DNA of 64,000 nucleotides from an uncultured Kiritimatiellota bacterium. GTDB lineage: Bacteria; Verrucomicrobiota; Kiritimatiellia; RFP12; DVOR01. The translations under genes were made by a program, and so were the position numbers. The stretch is taken from positions 1 through 64,000 of the forward strand of contig CALXMT010000008.1 of NCBI GenBank assembly GCA_944389545.1, written 5' to 3'. Positions 7,114-52,036 of this stretch are shown one piece after another. The notes beneath the pieces are model-generated. The model had not been told where the DNA came from, searched no databases, and worked only from the letters and a program-made list of their open reading frames with translations. Position 1 is the first letter of the stretch, and the number at the start of each line of letters is the position of its first letter.

Positions 7114-8109
7114 ATGAATGCTTACCCAGAGTTGCGTCTCCGCCGCGTCCGGCGCACTGCCGGCATCCGCGCACTGTTCGATCTTGAAATCCCCGGCCCC
7201 GCGAAGTGGTGCTGGCCCATGTTCGTTGTCCCGGGAACGAGCATCAAAGAGGAAATCGCCTCCATGCCCGGGCAGTTCCATTGGTCCGTCGACCGCGTGT
7301 GTGAGGCTGTCGAACCCGTGGTGCGACAGGGCATCGGCTCGGTGTTGCTCTTTGGGCAGACCGACCGGACGAAGGACAACGGCGGCTCGCCGGCGTGGGA
7401 TGATCGCGGTGTGGTGCAGCAGGCCGTTCGGGTCCTGAAGCGCGCCTTCCCGGGTCTCACCGTGATGACCGACGTCTGTCTTTGCGCCTACACCAGCCAC
7501 GGCCATTGCGCCCCGCTCCGCCCCGATGGCTCGATCGACAATGACGCCGCCTGCGACTGTCTGTCCAAGGTCGCCCTCTCGCATGCTGCCGCCGGCGCCG
7601 ATGTCGTTGCGCCCTCGGCGATGATGGATGGGCAAATCGCCGCCATCCGTACCGCTCTCGCCGAAAACGCCTTTGACGACACCCTGCTGATGGCCTACTC
7701 CACCAAGTTCGCCTCCGCCTGCTATGGGCCCTTCCGCGACGCAGAAGGCTCCGCGCCCCAGCCCGTCCCCGGCGCCCCCACCGACCGCAAGGGGTACCAA
7801 GCCTCTTTCGCGAACCCGCGCAACGCGCTCCTGGAATCCGCGCTCGACGAACAGGAGGGCGCCGACATCCTGATGGTCAAGCCTGCCCTCTTCTACACCG
7901 ACATGATCGCCGCCGTCAAGGCCCGCACTCTTCTTCCCGTCGCGGCCTACAACGTCAGCGGCGAATACTCCATGCTCATCGCCACCGCCCGCGCCGGGTG
8001 GGGCGACCTGCGCGAGCTGGTCCGCGAGAGCACCCTGGCCCTCACCCGCGCCGGCACCGACCTCATCATCTCCTACTGGGCCAACCGTTATGACGAGCTC
8101 CTCGCCTGA
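7114..8109 (+). CDS. hemB: Porphobilinogen synthase (delta-aminolevulinate dehydratase)
   Basis: A 331-residue enzyme that condenses two 5-aminolevulinate molecules to porphobilinogen in tetrapyrrole synthesis. Visible features are the DVCLCAYTSHGHC metal-site loop with its cysteines, VAPSAMMDGQ, the first Schiff-base Lys in AYSTKFASACYGPFRDA, and the second in MVKPALFYTDMI. The ATG at 7114 (MNAYPELRLRR) is preferred over 7078 because a TATACT box ends seven bases before it. The gene overlaps the next start by 20 bp, so the two are co-transcribed. Confidence 0.95.
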   Translation: MNAYPELRLRRVRRTAGIRALFDLEIPGPAKWCWPMFVVPGTSIKEEIASMPGQFHWSVDRVCEAVEPVVRQGIGSVLLFGQTDRTKDNGGSPAWDDRGVVQQAVRVLKRAFPGLTVMTDVCLCAYTSHGHCAPLRPDGSIDNDAACDCLSKVALSHAAAGADVVAPSAMMDGQIAAIRTALAENAFDDTLLMAYSTKFASACYGPFRDAEGSAPQPVPGAPTDRKGYQASFANPRNALLESALDEQEGADILMVKPALFYTDMIAAVKARTLLPVAAYNVSGEYSMLIATARAGWGDLRELVRESTLALTRAGTDLIISYWANRYDELLA

Positions 8110-9037
8110 CGCCTTCGCCCACGACCTCGATGCCTTCCTTGACGCCGCGCAGTACGCCCGCGGCCTCTCCCCCGCCACCCGCGCCGCCTACAGCAATGCA
8201 CTCGGCACCCTTCGCGATGACCTCCTCCGCCGAGGCATTCGCGACTGGGCGAGTGTGGACGCAACAATCCTCGCCGAACACCTTCGCCGCCTCCAAGAAG
8301 GTCGAGGCTACGCTCCCGCCACCCTCGCCCAGCACACCGCCGCCATCCGCTCCCTCTTCAACTGGCTCCTCGACCAAGGCCGTATCCAAGCCTCCCCCCT
8401 CGATGCGCTTCCTCCCGCCAAACGCCCCAAACGCCTCCCCAAAACGCTCCCCGAAATCAAACTCAACGAACTGATTGAGGCCGTCGACGGCGATGACCTC
8501 GACTCCCTCCGCGACCGCGTGGCGCTGGAGTTGCTCTATGGCTGTGGATTGCGCTGTGCCGAACTCATCGGCCTGAACCTGCACGATGCCGACCTCCGCG
8601 CCCACACCCTCCGCGTTCACGGCAAAGGCAACAAAGAACGCGTCGTCCCTTATGGATCGCCCGCCCACACCGCGCTCCTCCGATGGCTCCAGGCCCGCAA
8701 ACACTTCGCCCTCACCTATAAGAAAGGCGACCTGGCCGCCGATCTCCTCACCCCCCGCGCCCCGCTCCTTCTCAGTCCCACCGGTCGCCGCGCCGGCCGT
8801 CCCCTGATTGCCGCCATTGTCCACCGCCGCATCCACGCCTTCCTGCCCGAAGGCACCCAAGCCACCCCCCACACCCTCCGCCACGCCTACGCCACCCACC
8901 TCCTCGAACACGGCGCCCCCCTCATGGACATCCGCCAACTCCTCGGCCACGCCTCCGTCGCCACCACCCAAATCTACACCCACGTCACCCCCTCCCGCCT
9001 CCGCGCCGCCTTCGATGCCGCCTTCCCCCGCAAGTAA
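8090..9037 (+). CDS. Tyrosine recombinase, XerC/XerD type
   Basis: A 315-residue site-specific recombinase with an N-terminal SAM-like core-binding domain (about 1-105) and a C-terminal catalytic domain. All catalytic residues are visible: Arg in YGCGLRCAEL, Lys in HGKGNKERV, His-x-x-Arg in PHTLRHAYATHLL, His in LLGHASVATT and the nucleophile Tyr in TQIYTH. Length fits Xer proteins that resolve chromosome dimers, although an integrase-like role is possible. It overlaps hemB by 20 bp. The last 69 bp, from the Gln codon two residues before the catalytic Tyr to the stop, are the first bases of the 722-bp direct repeat and recur at 12536-12604. Confidence 0.92.
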   Translation: MTSSSPDAFAHDLDAFLDAAQYARGLSPATRAAYSNALGTLRDDLLRRGIRDWASVDATILAEHLRRLQEGRGYAPATLAQHTAAIRSLFNWLLDQGRIQASPLDALPPAKRPKRLPKTLPEIKLNELIEAVDGDDLDSLRDRVALELLYGCGLRCAELIGLNLHDADLRAHTLRVHGKGNKERVVPYGSPAHTALLRWLQARKHFALTYKKGDLAADLLTPRAPLLLSPTGRRAGRPLIAAIVHRRIHAFLPEGTQATPHTLRHAYATHLLEHGAPLMDIRQLLGHASVATTQIYTHVTPSRLRAAFDAAFPRK

Positions 9038-9089
9038 ACACGCAAGACCTCCAAGAACCGTCAGCAAGCAGACCCTTGTAGGAGTGTCT

Positions 9090-9212
9090 GCGGGAAAATT
9101 GGGACCGCAAAGACGCCATTGTGAGCGCGAACCGCTTCGGGCTCCATCGGTCGCTCTACGGCTTCGCCGCTGACCGCGACCGCCGCCCTCCGTTTCGCGC
9201 TTTCTCGGCTTA
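9090..9212 (-). repeat. About 120-bp dispersed repeat module (family A)
   Basis: A module recurring at 12657-12779, 26206-26312, 41678-41770, 43088-43212, 51386-51460 and 63648-63757, in both orientations. On its reference strand it reads roughly from GCGCGAAACGGAGGGCGG through a variable hairpin to GCGTCTTTGCGG. The hairpin is GCGGCGAAGCCGC in some copies and GCGGGC/GCCCGC in others. Confidence 0.8.
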
Positions 9213-9452
9213 AGAAAAGCAAGGGTGTGGGGCAGAGCTCCACCACGAATACCAAAGCTAATCAGCCAAGCTTCCACTTCCCCCTTTGAGCGCCCCTTCA
9301 GGGGCGCGATAGCGTGGAAATCCCAAGGGCGGCGTGACCGGCGGGAGCGATGGAGCCCGTAGGGTTTCCACGCCAAACCGTCTTCGCGGAAAAACTTCCC
9401 CGGATAGTATTGCCGAACAGTATAAGTGACGATACGGCAAGTCGGCTTTTGC

Positions 9453-9458
9453 TATACT
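9453..9458 (+). promoter_or_regulatory. -10 box for RNA leader, copy 1
   Basis: TTTTGC followed by TATACT, the best match to the recurring -10 form in this window. The predicted transcript would begin around 9464, so the leader up to the ATG at 9661 is close to 200 nt. Confidence 0.6.
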
Positions 9459-9461
9459 ATT

Positions 9462-9660
9462 GGCACGCTACGGGAAAGCCGTAGTACCACCTACGCTAAG
9501 CGTAACAAGGTTGCTTTATCTGAAACCTAGGAAATTTCTGTAAGCAAGCAACGTGTTAGGCGAGGCGTGCCGTCCTATAGGCACGCTTCCCTTCGCGTGT
9601 TTGTTCACGGGCACATCCTAGGGCCTCAGATAAAGCACGCAAAGGGAGCGTGCTTTTTTC
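9462..9660 (+). promoter_or_regulatory. Structured RNA leader with terminator/antiterminator, copy 1
   Basis: Predicted stems: GGCACGC (9462-9468) with GCGTGCC (9565-9571); TACGG (9469-9473) with CCGTA (9479-9483); TACGC (9492-9496) with GCGTA (9500-9504); GTTGCTT (9510-9516) with AAGCAAC (9546-9552). GCTTTATCTGA (9513-9523) can instead pair with TCAGATAAAGC (9626-9636), extended by CCTAGG (9526-9531) with CCTAGG (9617-9622). That long-range stem uses bases needed by the terminator AAAGCACGC (9632-9640)/GCGTGCTTT (9648-9656) plus six U. A Shine-Dalgarno-like AAAGGGAG lies in the terminator loop and the ATG follows the U-tract by one base. This resembles riboswitch or processive antitermination leaders; I do not recognise the family. 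Confidence 0.7.
9632..9659 (+). terminator. Attenuator-type terminator before the 9661 ORF
   Basis: AAAGCACGC / GCGTGCTTT stem with loop AAAGGGA and a TTTTTT tract, immediately before the ATG at 9661. It is mutually exclusive with the upstream long-range stem. Confidence 0.75.
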
Positions 9661-11430
9661 ATGCCCATGACAGTAAAGATGGCGCATTTGCGCGAGCGGA
9701 TCGGGTTCTTATGGACTCGGCATCGAGAGTTTGTGGTCTACTGCTTAAACAAAACCAGTGGGATGACGCAGGATTGTCAAGGTGGCGCGTGGTTACGGGG
9801 GATGGTGTGGTGTTGTTTGCTCCCGCTTGTTTCGGGTGGTATCGCGGTTTCGGGGTTACCGTTTAAGTTGTCGCTTTTCTCGGTGGCACTGCCGATTGGT
9901 TTATTTGTGGTGTTGGCTGTGGCGTTGTGGCGAACGGGATGGCGAGGTGCCCTTGGAGCTGTGCTTTTTTTGATAGTTTCGTTCTTTTTAGCAGATGCGT
10001 TTGCGCTAGGCGGTATTGGGGATGACTGGCTTTATCGTTTTCCGCAGGTTTTCTTGTTGGAGGATGGATGGAACCCCGTACTTTATCGTATGACAGAAAG
10101 TGCGGAGGCAGTGGGATTGGATTTGGGGGATGTGCGACTTTACCATGTCTTTTTCTTGCCAGTATTCAATGCTGCATGGGCGGCCTCGGTTGATAGCGTT
10201 TTGGGGTCGTTGGGCGGGTTCGTTTGGGAAGCATTCCTGTTTCTTCCATTGGTGGCACTGTTGGCTGTTCGAGTTGGCAGATTGATTGCTCCTTCGTGGC
10301 GATGGATGGGGATCCTCTTGTTCTTGGCGAGTTTCGCGGCGTGCTATCGGGGCAACTTCATTTGGAGCCCTACAGATGCTTTGGGCGCGTTTGTGTATGT
10401 GGCGCTTGTCTTTGCGCTTGTTTTGTCATTGCGTGGGCAGAGTCAGTACTTCTGGATGTCGGTGTGCACGGTGTTTCTGCTGTGCACGAAGCCTAACCAT
10501 GCTAGCTATTGTGTGCTTATCTGGGGTGCACTGATGATTGGGCTCTTTGTATCTCGGCGATGGGAGGAAATGAGGCGGGTGTTTTTGCTTCTTTTCCCTT
10601 GGTTGGCGATTGTGGTGTTATGGTTGAACTTTCATCCCTATCTTACCGGTTGGGTCTGCCAAGGGAGTCCGCTTTATCCTTTCCATTCGTTTACGTTGGA
10701 TGTGAGCCAGACCAATATCCTTTCTGATTTAGGGACCGCACCGGAGGGGGCAGTGCCTTCACTGAGTGCGCTAGTGAAGTCGCCCATTCTGGTGTTTGCG
10801 GCCTTCCCGTTTGTGATGACAGGGCTTTTATGGAAGATTCGTCATCCAGTATGGCCGTTGGTGGGATGGTTACTCTTTATTTGCGCGGTACTCACGCCAA
10901 GCCGTTGCTACAACTATAGTCGCTATTATCTTTGGCTGCCCATTCTGCCAGTGTTGCTTGGATGTATGCTGTTAGAGGGACGGTTACGGCTGACGCGGTG
11001 GCTCGGCGTGGCGGTTTTGTTGTGTGTGACGGTCGCCTTGGGCGGTCTTGTGGCGTTGCGCACCATCACGTTCGGGACCTTCTCATTTGACCTTTACAAG
11101 GTCACCCAAGCACAAGTGACAGTAAAGACTTGGCCTACTAGTCCAGACTGGTTCCCGGAAGTTTATCCACCCAATGGAACAGCGTACACGGTCGACATCC
11201 TTCTTCGCCAACGCGCTGGCAATCCCATCGAACACATAGAGAAGAAAGGTCCGAGCGATATCGCTTTCCCCGATCGACCTATTGCGGTTACGCGTGAGGA
11301 CGCGGAACGTCTAGGTTTGGATGGCCCAAGTTGCGGTACGAACACCCCTTCCCTGCGCGCGACCTTACGCTTCCCCATAATGCTGGTCCAGACCATCTTC
11401 CGGAATCGTCAGAAGGAAAACAGAAAATGA
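9661..11430 (+). CDS. Polytopic membrane protein with GtrA-like N-terminus (chimera)
   Basis: A 589-residue ORF. Residues 1 to about 40 match the GtrA-family protein at 13228 (shared MPMTVKMAHL and REFVVYCL) but the GtrA fold stops there. The rest is an unrelated hydrophobic protein with about 10-12 membrane segments and a soluble C-terminal tail from about residue 475. It resembles membrane glycosyltransferase or polymerase-like proteins of surface-polysaccharide loci, but I recognise no family. GC is visibly lower than in the neighbours, with many T- and G-ending codons, suggesting transfer. An internal ATG at 9802 preceded by GGGGG could be the original start. Transcription would come from the leader promoter at 9453. 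Confidence 0.6.
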   Translation: MPMTVKMAHLRERIGFLWTRHREFVVYCLNKTSGMTQDCQGGAWLRGMVWCCLLPLVSGGIAVSGLPFKLSLFSVALPIGLFVVLAVALWRTGWRGALGAVLFLIVSFFLADAFALGGIGDDWLYRFPQVFLLEDGWNPVLYRMTESAEAVGLDLGDVRLYHVFFLPVFNAAWAASVDSVLGSLGGFVWEAFLFLPLVALLAVRVGRLIAPSWRWMGILLFLASFAACYRGNFIWSPTDALGAFVYVALVFALVLSLRGQSQYFWMSVCTVFLLCTKPNHASYCVLIWGALMIGLFVSRRWEEMRRVFLLLFPWLAIVVLWLNFHPYLTGWVCQGSPLYPFHSFTLDVSQTNILSDLGTAPEGAVPSLSALVKSPILVFAAFPFVMTGLLWKIRHPVWPLVGWLLFICAVLTPSRCYNYSRYYLWLPILPVLLGCMLLEGRLRLTRWLGVAVLLCVTVALGGLVALRTITFGTFSFDLYKVTQAQVTVKTWPTSPDWFPEVYPPNGTAYTVDILLRQRAGNPIEHIEKKGPSDIAFPDRPIAVTREDAERLGLDGPSCGTNTPSLRATLRFPIMLVQTIFRNRQKENRK

Positions 11431-12535: not shown

Positions 12536-12604
12536 CAAATCTACACCCACGTCACCCCCTCCCGCCTCCGCGCCGCCTTCGATGCCGCCTTCCCCCGCAA
12601 GTAA
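12536..12604 (+). pseudogene. 3' fragment of tyrosine recombinase gene
   Basis: Encodes the last 22 residues of the recombinase at 8090-9037, including the catalytic Tyr, then the same TAA. There is no start or catalytic domain; it exists only as part of repeat copy 2. Confidence 0.9.
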
Positions 12605-13019
12605 ACACGCAAGACCTCCAAGAACCGTCAGCAAGCAGACCCTTGTAGGAGTGTCTGCGGGAAAATTGGGACCGCAAAGACGCCATTGTGAGCGCGAACC
12701 GCTTCGGGCTCCATCGGTCGCTCTACGGCTTCGCCGCTGACCGCGACCGCCGCCCTCCGTTTCGCGCTTTCTCGGCTTAAGAAAAGCAAGGGTGTGGGGC
12801 AGAGCTCCACCACGAATACCAAAGCTAATCAGCCAAGCTTCCACTTCCCCCTTTGAGCGCCCCTTCAGGGGCGCGATAGCGTGGAAATCCCAAGGGCGGC
12901 GTGACCGGCGGGAGCGATGGAGCCCGTAGGGTTTCCACGCCAAACCGTCTTCGCGGAAAAACTTCCCCGGATAGTATTGCCGAACAGTATAAGTGACGAT
13001 ACGGCAAGTCGGCTTTTGC

Positions 13020-13025
13020 TATACT
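13020..13025 (+). promoter_or_regulatory. -10 box for RNA leader, copy 2
   Basis: TATACT preceded by TTTTGC, identical to 9453-9458. It should drive the leader and the gtrA/glycosyltransferase pair. Confidence 0.6.
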
Positions 13026-13028
13026 ATT

Positions 13029-13227
13029 GGCACGCTACGGGAAAGCCGTAGTACCACCTACGCTAAGCGTAACAAGGTTGCTTTATCTGAAACCTAGGAA
13101 ATTTCTGTAAGCAAGCAACGTGTTAGGCGAGGCGTGCCGTCCTATAGGCACGCTTCCCTTCGCGTGTTTGTTCACGGGCACATCCTAGGGCCTCAGATAA
13201 AGCACGCAAAGGGAGCGTGCTTTTTTC
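13029..13227 (+). promoter_or_regulatory. Structured RNA leader with terminator/antiterminator, copy 2
   Basis: Base-for-base identical to 9462-9660, with the same competing long-range stem and terminator (13199-13226) ending one base before the gtrA ATG at 13228. Here the downstream gene is an intact GtrA, so this copy is the one likely to have the ancestral arrangement. Confidence 0.7.
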
Positions 13228-13677
13228 ATGCCCATGACAGTAAAGATGGCGCATTTGTGCGAGCGGATCGAGTCTTTGTGGACTCGATATAGGGAGTTTG
13301 TGGTCTACTGCCTAATCGGGGGCAGTGGGGTGACGCTGGATTGTCTGGTCTTCGTGGGCTTGACGATGGGGCTGGGGTGGCACTATCAGCTGGCGAACGC
13401 CATCAGCGTCTCATGCGGCATCTGCAACAACTTCTTCCTCAATGCCTTTTTCAACTTCAAGCGAACGGACCGCCTGTGGTTGCGCTTCCTCTCCTTCTAT
13501 AGCGTGGGCTTGTTGGGACTGGGGGTAAGCGCGGCGTTGCTATGGCTCTTCGTTGAAGTCCTTTGTTGGAACGAGCTGATTGCCAAGCTTGTCATCATCT
13601 TTGTCGTCACAATTCTGCAATTCACGCTCAACAAATGCGTGACCTTCCGAAAGCGAGCCGCCGATGAAACCTTATGA
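13228..13677 (+). CDS. GtrA-family membrane protein
   Basis: A 149-residue protein with four hydrophobic helices typical of GtrA: FVVYCLIGGSGVTLDCLVFVGL, LANAISVSCGICNNFFLNAFFNF, a third near residues 90-110, and LVIIFVVTILQFTLNKCVTF. GtrA proteins are thought to flip polyprenyl-phosphate sugars across the inner membrane for O-antigen or wall glycosylation. The ATG at 13228 follows the leader terminator directly, so translation initiation and attenuation may be linked. It overlaps the glycosyltransferase gene by 14 bp. The first 40 residues are shared with the chimeric ORF at 9661. Confidence 0.9.
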   Translation: MPMTVKMAHLCERIESLWTRYREFVVYCLIGGSGVTLDCLVFVGLTMGLGWHYQLANAISVSCGICNNFFLNAFFNFKRTDRLWLRFLSFYSVGLLGLGVSAALLWLFVEVLCWNELIAKLVIIFVVTILQFTLNKCVTFRKRAADETL

Positions 13678-51684: not shown

Positions 51685-51760
51685 TGGTAGGGGTGCACGG
51701 GCTTGAACCGTGGACCCAGTGATTAAGAGTCACTTGCTCTACCAACTGAGCTACACCCCC
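51685..51760 (-). tRNA. tRNA-Lys (CTT), copy 1
   Basis: 76 nt including encoded CCA. Acceptor GGGGGTG/CACCCCT with a G1-U72 wobble, D-arm GCTC/GAGC, anticodon stem AGTGA/TCACT with loop CTCTTAA (anticodon CTT), variable GGGTC, T-arm CACGG-TTCAAGC-CCGTG. Identical to the copy at 51878. Confidence 0.96.
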
Positions 51761-51767
51761 GGAAGGA

Positions 51768-51843
51768 TGGAGCGAACTAAGGGACTCGAACCCTCAACCT
51801 CCACCTTGGCAAGGTGGAGCTCTGCCAATTGAGCTAAGTTCGC
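51768..51843 (-). tRNA. tRNA-Gly (GCC), copy 1
   Basis: 76 nt with encoded CCA. Acceptor GCGAACT/AGTTCGC, anticodon stem CCACC/GGTGG with loop TTGCCAA (anticodon GCC), T-arm GAGGG-TTCGAGT-CCCTT. Lies seven bases upstream of tRNA-Lys copy 1 in the transcript. Confidence 0.96.
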
Positions 51844-51877
51844 CTCACTGGCGTTTTTGGGCGCTTCCATCCTCGGA

Positions 51878-51953
51878 TGGTAGGGGTGCACGGGCTTGAA
51901 CCGTGGACCCAGTGATTAAGAGTCACTTGCTCTACCAACTGAGCTACACCCCC
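51878..51953 (-). tRNA. tRNA-Lys (CTT), copy 2
   Basis: Identical to 51685-51760 at an offset of 193 bp, including the G1-U72 pair and encoded CCA. Confidence 0.96.
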
Positions 51954-51960
51954 GGAAGGA

Positions 51961-52036
51961 TGGAGCGAACTAAGGGACTCGAACCCTCAACCTCCACCTT
52001 GGCAAGGTGGAGCTCTGCCAATTGAGCTAAGTTCGC
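51961..52036 (-). tRNA. tRNA-Gly (GCC), copy 2
   Basis: Identical to 51768-51843 at the same 193-bp offset. It is the first tRNA of the transcript; the order is Gly-Lys-Gly-Lys. Confidence 0.96.

Follow-up and report, generated by a model that had tools for sequence, protein, structure and literature searches.

Directly against the start of two GtrA-type genes in the window (the whole stretch of DNA analysed, 64 000 nt long) lies a leader of about 200 nt. The question raised by this locus is whether the leader is a regulatory RNA and, if so, of which kind, how it would work and which genes it would control. It is one copy of a widespread RNA switch of gut Kiritimatiellae and many Bacteroidota. 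We give a probability of about 0.78 to the reading that it is a cis-acting two-state RNA attenuator of a previously uncatalogued Verrucomicrobiota and Bacteroidota RNA family; the existence and breadth of this family, its two sets of pairings and its position at gene starts are directly documented. The locus comprises the following features; ORFs were called mechanically, and the E-values of the custom covariance models R1 and R2 are rough:

9462–9660, + strand: leader RNA, first copy (folding z −7.57; model R1 match 9510–9658, 147 bits, E 2.7e−29)
13029–13227, + strand: leader RNA, second, identical copy (model R1 match 13077–13225, 147 bits, E 2.7e−29)
9453–9458, + strand: −10-like hexamer TATACT within the conserved TTTTGCTATACTAT, just 5′ of the leader; candidate promoter element (direct reading)
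9661–11430, + strand: putatively regulated ORF 1, a GtrA-like N-terminus fused to a polytopic membrane protein, 589 aa (no Pfam match)
13228–13677, + strand: putatively regulated ORF 2, GtrA (PF04138, E 2.8e−24)

Every motif named in a preliminary description of this DNA lies at the position given there: GCTTTATCTGA at 9513 and TCAGATAAAGC at 9626, CCTAGG at 9526 and 9617, GCACGC at 9463, 9581 and 9635, GCGTGC at 9565 and 9648, AAAGCACGC at 9632 and GCGTGCTTT at 9648. The Shine–Dalgarno-like AAAGGGAG at 9641 is indeed in the loop of the terminator-like hairpin T, and the start codon does follow the U-tract (9654–9659) by one base (C at 9660, ATG at 9661). Folding of the 200-nt leader gave a minimum free energy of −95.9 kcal mol−1, as compared with −60.0±4.75 kcal mol−1 for 200 dinucleotide shuffles (z −7.57; no shuffle was as low). 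Upstream, TTTTGCTATnCTA is kept 5′ of the genus copies in the alignment.

The two leader copies are contained in a perfect 722-bp duplication (8969–9690 = 12536–13257), which reaches from the 3′ end of an xerC-like gene through the leader into the start of gtrA; the downstream duplicate retains an xerC remnant of ∼22 codons. The copy at 13029 is therefore no independent evidence beside that at 9462. The GtrA portion of ORF 1 comprises ∼37 aa and is followed by an unrelated membrane protein; this fusion is no assembly artefact of the genome, since the same fusion is present in the congener G003 (L117). A GT2 glycosyltransferase gene (Glycos_transf_2, E 3.5e−14) begins at 13664, after ORF 2. Elsewhere in the window, four tRNA genes on the − strand (51688–52036) form two near-identical pairs (69.3/68.8 bits twice), a tandem tRNA-pair duplication.

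The preliminary description had opposed a 17-pair helix to a terminator as two exclusive states. Exclusive folds exist, but that helix and the terminator overlap by a few bases and are largely compatible; the real exclusive alternatives are P4/P6/P7/P8/T and R/Q, an exchange that was half glimpsed in the GCACGC/GCGTGC repeats offered as additional alternative pairs. The key feature of the leader is a segment absent from that account: 9581–9599 is an imperfect antisense copy of 9636–9653, which holds the terminator and the Shine–Dalgarno sequence. In core numbering (core nucleotide i = window 9509 + i), state A consists of P4 4–14/117–127, P5 17–23/107–113, P6 31–38/92–99, P7 42–46/85–89, P8 54–62/71–79 and T 123–131/139–147, and state B of R 1–7/37–43, helix R2 (window 9503–9506/9555–9558) and Q 72–77/139–144, 80–84/133–137 and 86–90/127–131. 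The elements of the window copy are given below in window positions; tree-corrected E-values are rough, being extrapolated from 50–60 null alignments:

9462–9468, + strand: 5′ strand GGCACGC, with the T 3′ strand (minimum-energy fold) or the P8 5′ strand (state B) as predicted partner (folds; too conserved for covariation)
9468–9484, + strand: hairpin P2, 9468–9473/9479–9484 (tree-corrected covariation 9469–9483, E 4e−6; 9471–9481, E 2e−4)
9492–9504, + strand: hairpin P3, 9492–9496/9500–9504, its 3′ strand taken by helix R2 in state B (alignment, fold)
9503–9558, + strand: state B helix R2, 9503–9506/9555–9558, UAAC/GUUA (own versus swapped partners)
9510–9552, + strand: state B helix R, 9510–9516/9546–9552, GUUGCUU/AAGCAAC (94.6 % of cells paired; double changes in five of seven pairs)
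9513–9636, + strand: state A helix P4, 9513–9523/9626–9636, GCTTTATCTGA/TCAGATAAAGC (tree-corrected covariation, E down to 1.9e−11)
9526–9622, + strand: helix P5, 9526–9532/9616–9622, CCTAGG/CCTAGG, candidate kissing loop of stems S and U (tree-corrected E 1e−7 to 1e−4)
9522–9538, + strand: stem S, 9522–9525/9535–9538, GAAA/UUUC, with the P5 5′ strand as its loop (98 % of cells paired in A2, 95 % in A8; A-U to G-C double changes)
9609–9626, + strand: stem U, 9609–9612/9623–9626, GGGC/GCCU, with the P5 3′ strand as its loop; weaker than S (84–86 % of cells paired, some double changes)
9540–9608, + strand: state A helix P6, 9540–9547/9601–9608, one mismatch in the window copy (tree-corrected E down to 3e−10)
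9551–9598, + strand: state A helix P7, 9551–9555/9594–9598 (92.6 % of cells paired; one-sided changes only)
9563–9588, + strand: state A hairpin P8, 9563–9571/9580–9588 (98.9 % of cells paired; tree-corrected E 0.002–0.0035 at 9568–9583)
9581–9653, + strand: state B helix Q, 9581–9599/9636–9653, spanning both arms and the loop of T, Shine–Dalgarno sequence included (92 % of cells paired; double changes in 10 of 16 pairs)
9632–9659, + strand: 3′ hairpin T, 9632–9640/9648–9656, AAAGGGAG in its loop, then U6; terminator-like, Shine–Dalgarno-sequestering (93 % of cells paired)

Helix R2 takes the forms CAAAC/GUUUG, UAGAC/GUCUA and UGAC/GUCA in other copies, and P6 is free of its mismatch in a 98 % identical homologue (L007).

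Both sets of pairings are conserved with compensatory changes. In A2, the alignment of 30 cores from which model R1 was built, standard pairs occupy 93.5 % of the cells of state A and 92.8 % of those of state B, and double changes were found at 27 of 44 and 15 of 23 pairs, respectively. None of 500 shuffled controls matched the measures for paired cells, double changes and covariation, and slid pairings dropped to 30–60 %. Covariation was also analysed with a tree-corrected, R-scape-like test, by using FastTree, Fitch reconstruction, substitutions re-placed along the branches and a G statistic with APC. With 98 sequences of the genus, 20 significant pairs were obtained on a structure-fitted alignment and 12 on a MAFFT alignment, all of them in named helices apart from two off-by-one neighbours of P5. 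The crossing Q pair 76–140 (window 9585–9649) was significant (rough E 0.007–0.04), P2 gained significance once the 5′ extension was included, and on A2 alone significance was limited to P4 and P5 pairs. Overall, tree-corrected support extends to P2, P4, P5, P6, P8 and one Q pair; no R or T pair was individually significant in this test, by which R is mostly missed because it is too conserved.

The state B helices were further assessed by an alignment-free comparison of duplexes with their own and with swapped partners. This gave 30/2000 permutations (genus) and 0/2000 (A4) for R, 0/2000 for helix R2 (−9.21 kcal mol−1 with its own and −7.55 kcal mol−1 with a swapped partner), and 0/2000 (genus) and 0/5000 (each of two Bacteroidota clades) for Q. 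Alignments A8 and A4 were fitted to model R1, and the A4 loci were picked by sequence pattern, so that conservation of the pattern there is by selection. The preliminary description would have been refuted by a lack of homologues with compensatory changes; such homologues are plentiful in related genomes, by pair counts as well as by tree-corrected covariation. Among non-Watson–Crick cells, G·U outnumbers A·C by 763 to 223, which argues for selection on a sense-strand RNA and against selection on the opposite strand or on a DNA site that folds.

The flanks of the two P5 strands, GAAA…UUUC and GGGC…GCCU, are complementary and vary together, with the alternative type GGAAUA/UAUUUC for S and the types GGGU/ACCU and AAGCC/GGCUU for U, and P5 itself is almost without G·U (1 of 684 cells, as compared with 99 of 880 in P8). 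On these grounds P5 is probably a loop–loop (kissing) helix between hairpins S and U. State A would then be a four-way junction, P4–S–P6–U, and the switch would be a swap of the outer strands of this junction, paired as P4/P6 in state A and as R/Q in state B. Within this model, support is weakest for stem U.

Hairpin T is followed by a run of at least four U in most copies, 84 of 98 within the genus and 58 of 75 outside it (three or fewer in 14 and 17), and its median energy is −8.4 kcal mol−1 in the genus and −8.6 kcal mol−1 elsewhere; at the sequence level, most copies thus have the GC-rich hairpin and U-run of an intrinsic terminator. It is not certain that all copies act as strict intrinsic terminators, because three T are all that the tract contains at some loci (L005, L023); these loci suggest a role for ribosome-site occlusion that may equal that of termination.

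Searches with the leader sequence alone returned six copies in its own genome and matches in 10 congeners and one other genome. With model R1, the count rose to 19 in the own genome, and two congeners had 32 and 28; at least one copy was found in 16 of the 17 genomes of the window's genus, and copies were present in 68 of 388 sampled Verrucomicrobiota genomes. The exact pattern GAAACCTNNGAAATTTC-N(52–82)-TCNNAGGGCCTC, applied to GTDB representative genomes, identified more than 115 stretches; among the matches listed, those with informative titles belong to Bacteroidota (Prevotella, Pedobacter, Niabella, Dyadobacter, Muribaculaceae and others) or to Kiritimatiellae/Verrucomicrobia/Lentisphaeraceae. 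Model R1 gave a full-length match at all 74 loci searched, and of 296 genomes from the phylum to which a Pedobacter belongs, 19 had the element according to model R2. Rfam, searched at gathering score, holds no family for the element in the window or at 18 Bacteroidota loci, in keeping with the earlier statement that it matched no familiar riboswitch. At E up to 10, Pedo-repair was the sole match below 0.1 on the window copy; it was absent from the weak matches on 12 loci in a bulk search, which was larger and less sensitive.

Some loci carry two copies of the element within ∼0.5–1.5 kb (L132, G005:C4; L295, G001:C4; L092, G356:C15), the pair at L092 being divergent. At Prevotella-type loci (L160, L209, L184) a conserved stretch, AGAGGCC…GCCC…CCGATAAGTGCTTAT, is located ∼20–75 nt after the U-tract, between the 3′ hairpin and the start codon; it is partly complementary to the core GGGCCTC and may be another regulatory layer.

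The copies are co-directional and lie 5′ of genes. Of 47 Bacteroidota loci, 33 have an ATG ORF of at least 120 aa that begins no more than 150 nt from the 3′ end of the element, as compared with 5 of 47 on its other side and 11.9±2.8 at random places; in the window's genus an ATG lies at most 5 nt from the leader end in 61 of 82 cases. Judged by family matches, the controlled genes appear to be largely those of restriction-modification enzymes, joined by surface-glycan genes in the window's genus. Among 67 proteins from outside the genus (overlapping counts), EcoRI_methylase (7), MmeI_Mtase (8), Eco57I (5), N6_Mtase (5) and N6_N4_Mtase (4) were found, and PADLOC type II methyltransferase models matched up to 12. 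The 60 proteins from within the genus included GtrA (7), acyltransferases (6), GT4 glycosyltransferases (4), PEP-CTERM (7) and FrhB-like proteins (3) as well as N6_Mtase (4), Mrr/ResIII type ISP-like proteins (4), EcoRI_methylase (3), HsdM (3) and Eco57I (3). Among 50 control genes upstream of the element, the 25 families listed included no methyltransferase and none occurred twice; single weak matches are possible. In the own genome, 16 loci were read; at seven of them the leader stands before restriction-modification genes (two Eco57I/N6, two Mrr/ResIII, two EcoRI methylase and one HsdM), and at several others before surface genes. The earlier view that the leader precedes surface-glycan genes thus holds for the GtrA and glycosyltransferase targets of the genus; long glycan operons are not the main targets, and restriction modification is the clearer class across phyla. 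Gene loss need not remove the leader: at L023 (G007:C3) it stands before a short, truncated beginning of gtrA that is closed by a stop.

In the proposed mechanism, cross-molecule pairing of the outer strands (P4, P6, P7, P8), with the P5 strands paired, would leave the 3′ end free in state A to form T and its U-tract. The same strands would pair locally in state B: R and R2 would extend S, Q would extend U, and the antisense segment would take the whole of T together with the Shine–Dalgarno sequence. Formation of P8 would use up 9581–9599, and T could form; if R and R2 held the 5′ strands, P8 would open and 9581–9599 would pair with T as Q. In Bacteroidota, where the start codon lies ∼65 nt downstream and a U-run follows T, the simplest reading is that T would end transcription and Q would act as antiterminator. 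A signal, either ligand or protein, would shift the balance of the states, and expression of restriction-modification and surface genes would be made conditional by the leader.

Nearest-neighbour energies, which ignore kissing loops and kinetics, are −95.5 kcal mol−1 for the minimum of the window copy, −93.1 for state A with T and −83.3 for state B, so that state B would cost ∼12 kcal mol−1 in 95. Several points count against the attenuator reading: the predicted minimum is a third form, in which the 5′ end pairs with the T 3′ strand; T and Q both occlude the Shine–Dalgarno sequence in the window's genus; some copies have three T only; and the controlled genes are of non-uniform function. In folds of the growing transcript, R is formed by ∼9551–9571 and displaced once 9600–9640 has been made, which makes a kinetic decision possible. 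Swapped antisense/target duplexes between copies of one genus average −34 kcal mol−1 and are nearly interchangeable; for this reason, on a bolder and speculative reading, leaders of one genus could, once terminated, silence each other in trans and bring about mutually exclusive expression without DNA rearrangement.

Readings other than a cis-acting leader were weighed against the same data. The preliminary description had likened the element to ops/JUMPstart or EAR/LoaP elements, which would recruit a specialised NusG (RfaH, LoaP, UpxY) to long surface-glycan operons; the leader position and some glycan-gene targets are as expected, but the comparison fails because the genus has no second NusG. 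A paralogue search gave at most one NusG match per genome of the genus, the housekeeping gene; the window has no Rfam JUMPstart match, and targets elsewhere are mostly restriction-modification genes rather than long glycan operons, so that we regard this explanation as scarcely credible. Slightly less remote, and still very improbable, is the idea that accessory genes are moved by the element as a DNA site, either an attC-like recombination site in folded form or a MITE. The element is palindromic, lies beside variable genes, is part of the 722-bp duplication, adjoins a tyrosine recombinase (8090–9037) and has a GTTAGGC motif in some copies. Integron attC sites have conserved RYYYAAC/GTTRRRY boxes, an integron integrase and cassette arrays. 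The GTT is not conserved here, however, being GTC or other in several copies; the genome has three tyrosine recombinases only, none shown to be IntI; copies are dispersed; viral contigs, searched with one exact pattern, gave no match; and two alternative folds exist. The integron attC/MITE reading was rejected on the sense-strand excess of G·U over A·C, the oriented placement at gene starts and the lack of cassette arrays. The leader might also be a small RNA in its own right, transcribed from its own promoter to its own terminator and acting in trans or like a type III antitoxin; the downstream gene would then be incidental or its protein partner. The promoter-like element, T with its U-tract, the many copies per genome and the precedent of AbiF RNA, an RNA partner of a defence gene (PMC12373285), speak for it; yet unrelated protein families follow the same RNA, the co-directional bias is strong, and in copies from the window's genus the U-tract abuts the ATG and the Shine–Dalgarno sequence is part of the RNA; we consider this reading improbable. 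A second NusG-family gene was seen in other families of the order (G020, G021, G022, G025, G027, G029).

Within the attenuator reading, two triggers come into question. The P4–S–P6–U junction with the P5 kissing loop might be a small-molecule aptamer, which would make the leader a ligand-binding riboswitch; the conserved multihelix core with its likely kissing loop, the separate expression platform and the very diverse target genes are in favour of this. Pairing in state A or in state B, however, accounts for most conserved nucleotides and few invariant positions are unpaired, the core varies across the phylum, and the regulon points to no obvious metabolite; a ligand is thus a serious possibility, with the odds against it. 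A protein, or the translation or transcription machinery, could act instead, as in ribosomal-protein or attenuator leaders. The anatomy resembles that of known attenuators, and diverse genes under one signal would be accommodated, but no common partner gene was seen beside the copies and a single protein would need to serve two phyla; we consider this trigger rather unlikely.

Restriction modification is known to be regulated by C proteins, promoters, methylation and single-system antisense RNAs. A common two-state leader before unrelated restriction-modification families and surface genes would, if the attenuator reading is true, be a new regulatory layer of phage defence; no description of such an RNA-leader layer in Bacteroidota and Verrucomicrobiota was found in the literature searched. 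That search found no RNA leader of restriction-modification genes, and an unnamed entry in the supplementary tables of a microbiome RNA survey (PMC8040213) is possible. A more far-reaching proposal is speculative and more doubtful than not: a new riboswitch class, built on a kissing-loop four-way junction with Pedo-repair as a distant branch, might sense one intracellular signal and switch restriction-modification and surface-glycan genes together, as an RNA-level defence regulon of two phyla. For a search for the signal, the family offers cultivable hosts (Segatella copri, Xylanibacter brevis, Pedobacter and Niabella).

Pedo-repair (RF01715) is catalogued as a probable RNA, with cis-regulatory function marked '?' and riboswitch 'n', from Pedobacter only (PMC2864571); it has no assigned function. 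It has the same helix order and topology as the leader in both states (R, P4, P5, P6, Q): in nine copies from Pedobacter sp. L105 and a relative, 96.4 % of the cells of P4, P5 and P6 are paired, with 15 double-changed pairs, and 94.9 % of those of R and Q, with seven. Model R2, built without any Pedo-repair sequence, matched three of the nine copies weakly (rough E 7e−4 to 7e−3) in the same helix order, and model R1 matched none. Pedo-repair differs in its long P8 and its sequence motifs, and its Rfam model gave a weak match to the window copy (22.1 bits, E 0.0054), far from the gathering cut-off of 150 bits. The window element is not filed as Pedo-repair because of this formal result; Pedo-repair is probably a distant branch of one superfamily with the leader, and this orphan motif would gain a place in a large family.

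Two-state attenuators and riboswitch expression platforms likewise have exclusive helices with a terminator-like hairpin and a ribosome-binding site. The leader differs from them in that it has no known aptamer class, its gene set lies outside one metabolic pathway, and its antisense segment pairs with the entire 3′ hairpin, loop and both arms; it shares with riboswitches the conserved, structured 5′ leader with an exclusive expression platform, and a riboswitch would in addition directly and specifically bind a ligand that shifts the fold. JUMPstart/ops (RF01707), EAR and LoaP elements are also leaders of surface-polysaccharide genes, from which this one differs by the lack of a matching sequence, a genus without specialised NusG and other target genes. 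Antisense RNAs of EcoRI and Eco29kI control restriction modification, and a review of such control names antisense RNAs and not riboswitches or attenuation (PMC3874152). These RNAs, too, act on restriction modification, but they are antisense transcripts of single systems, whereas the leader is a conserved 5′ element that precedes unrelated type I, II, IIG, III and ISP-like systems.
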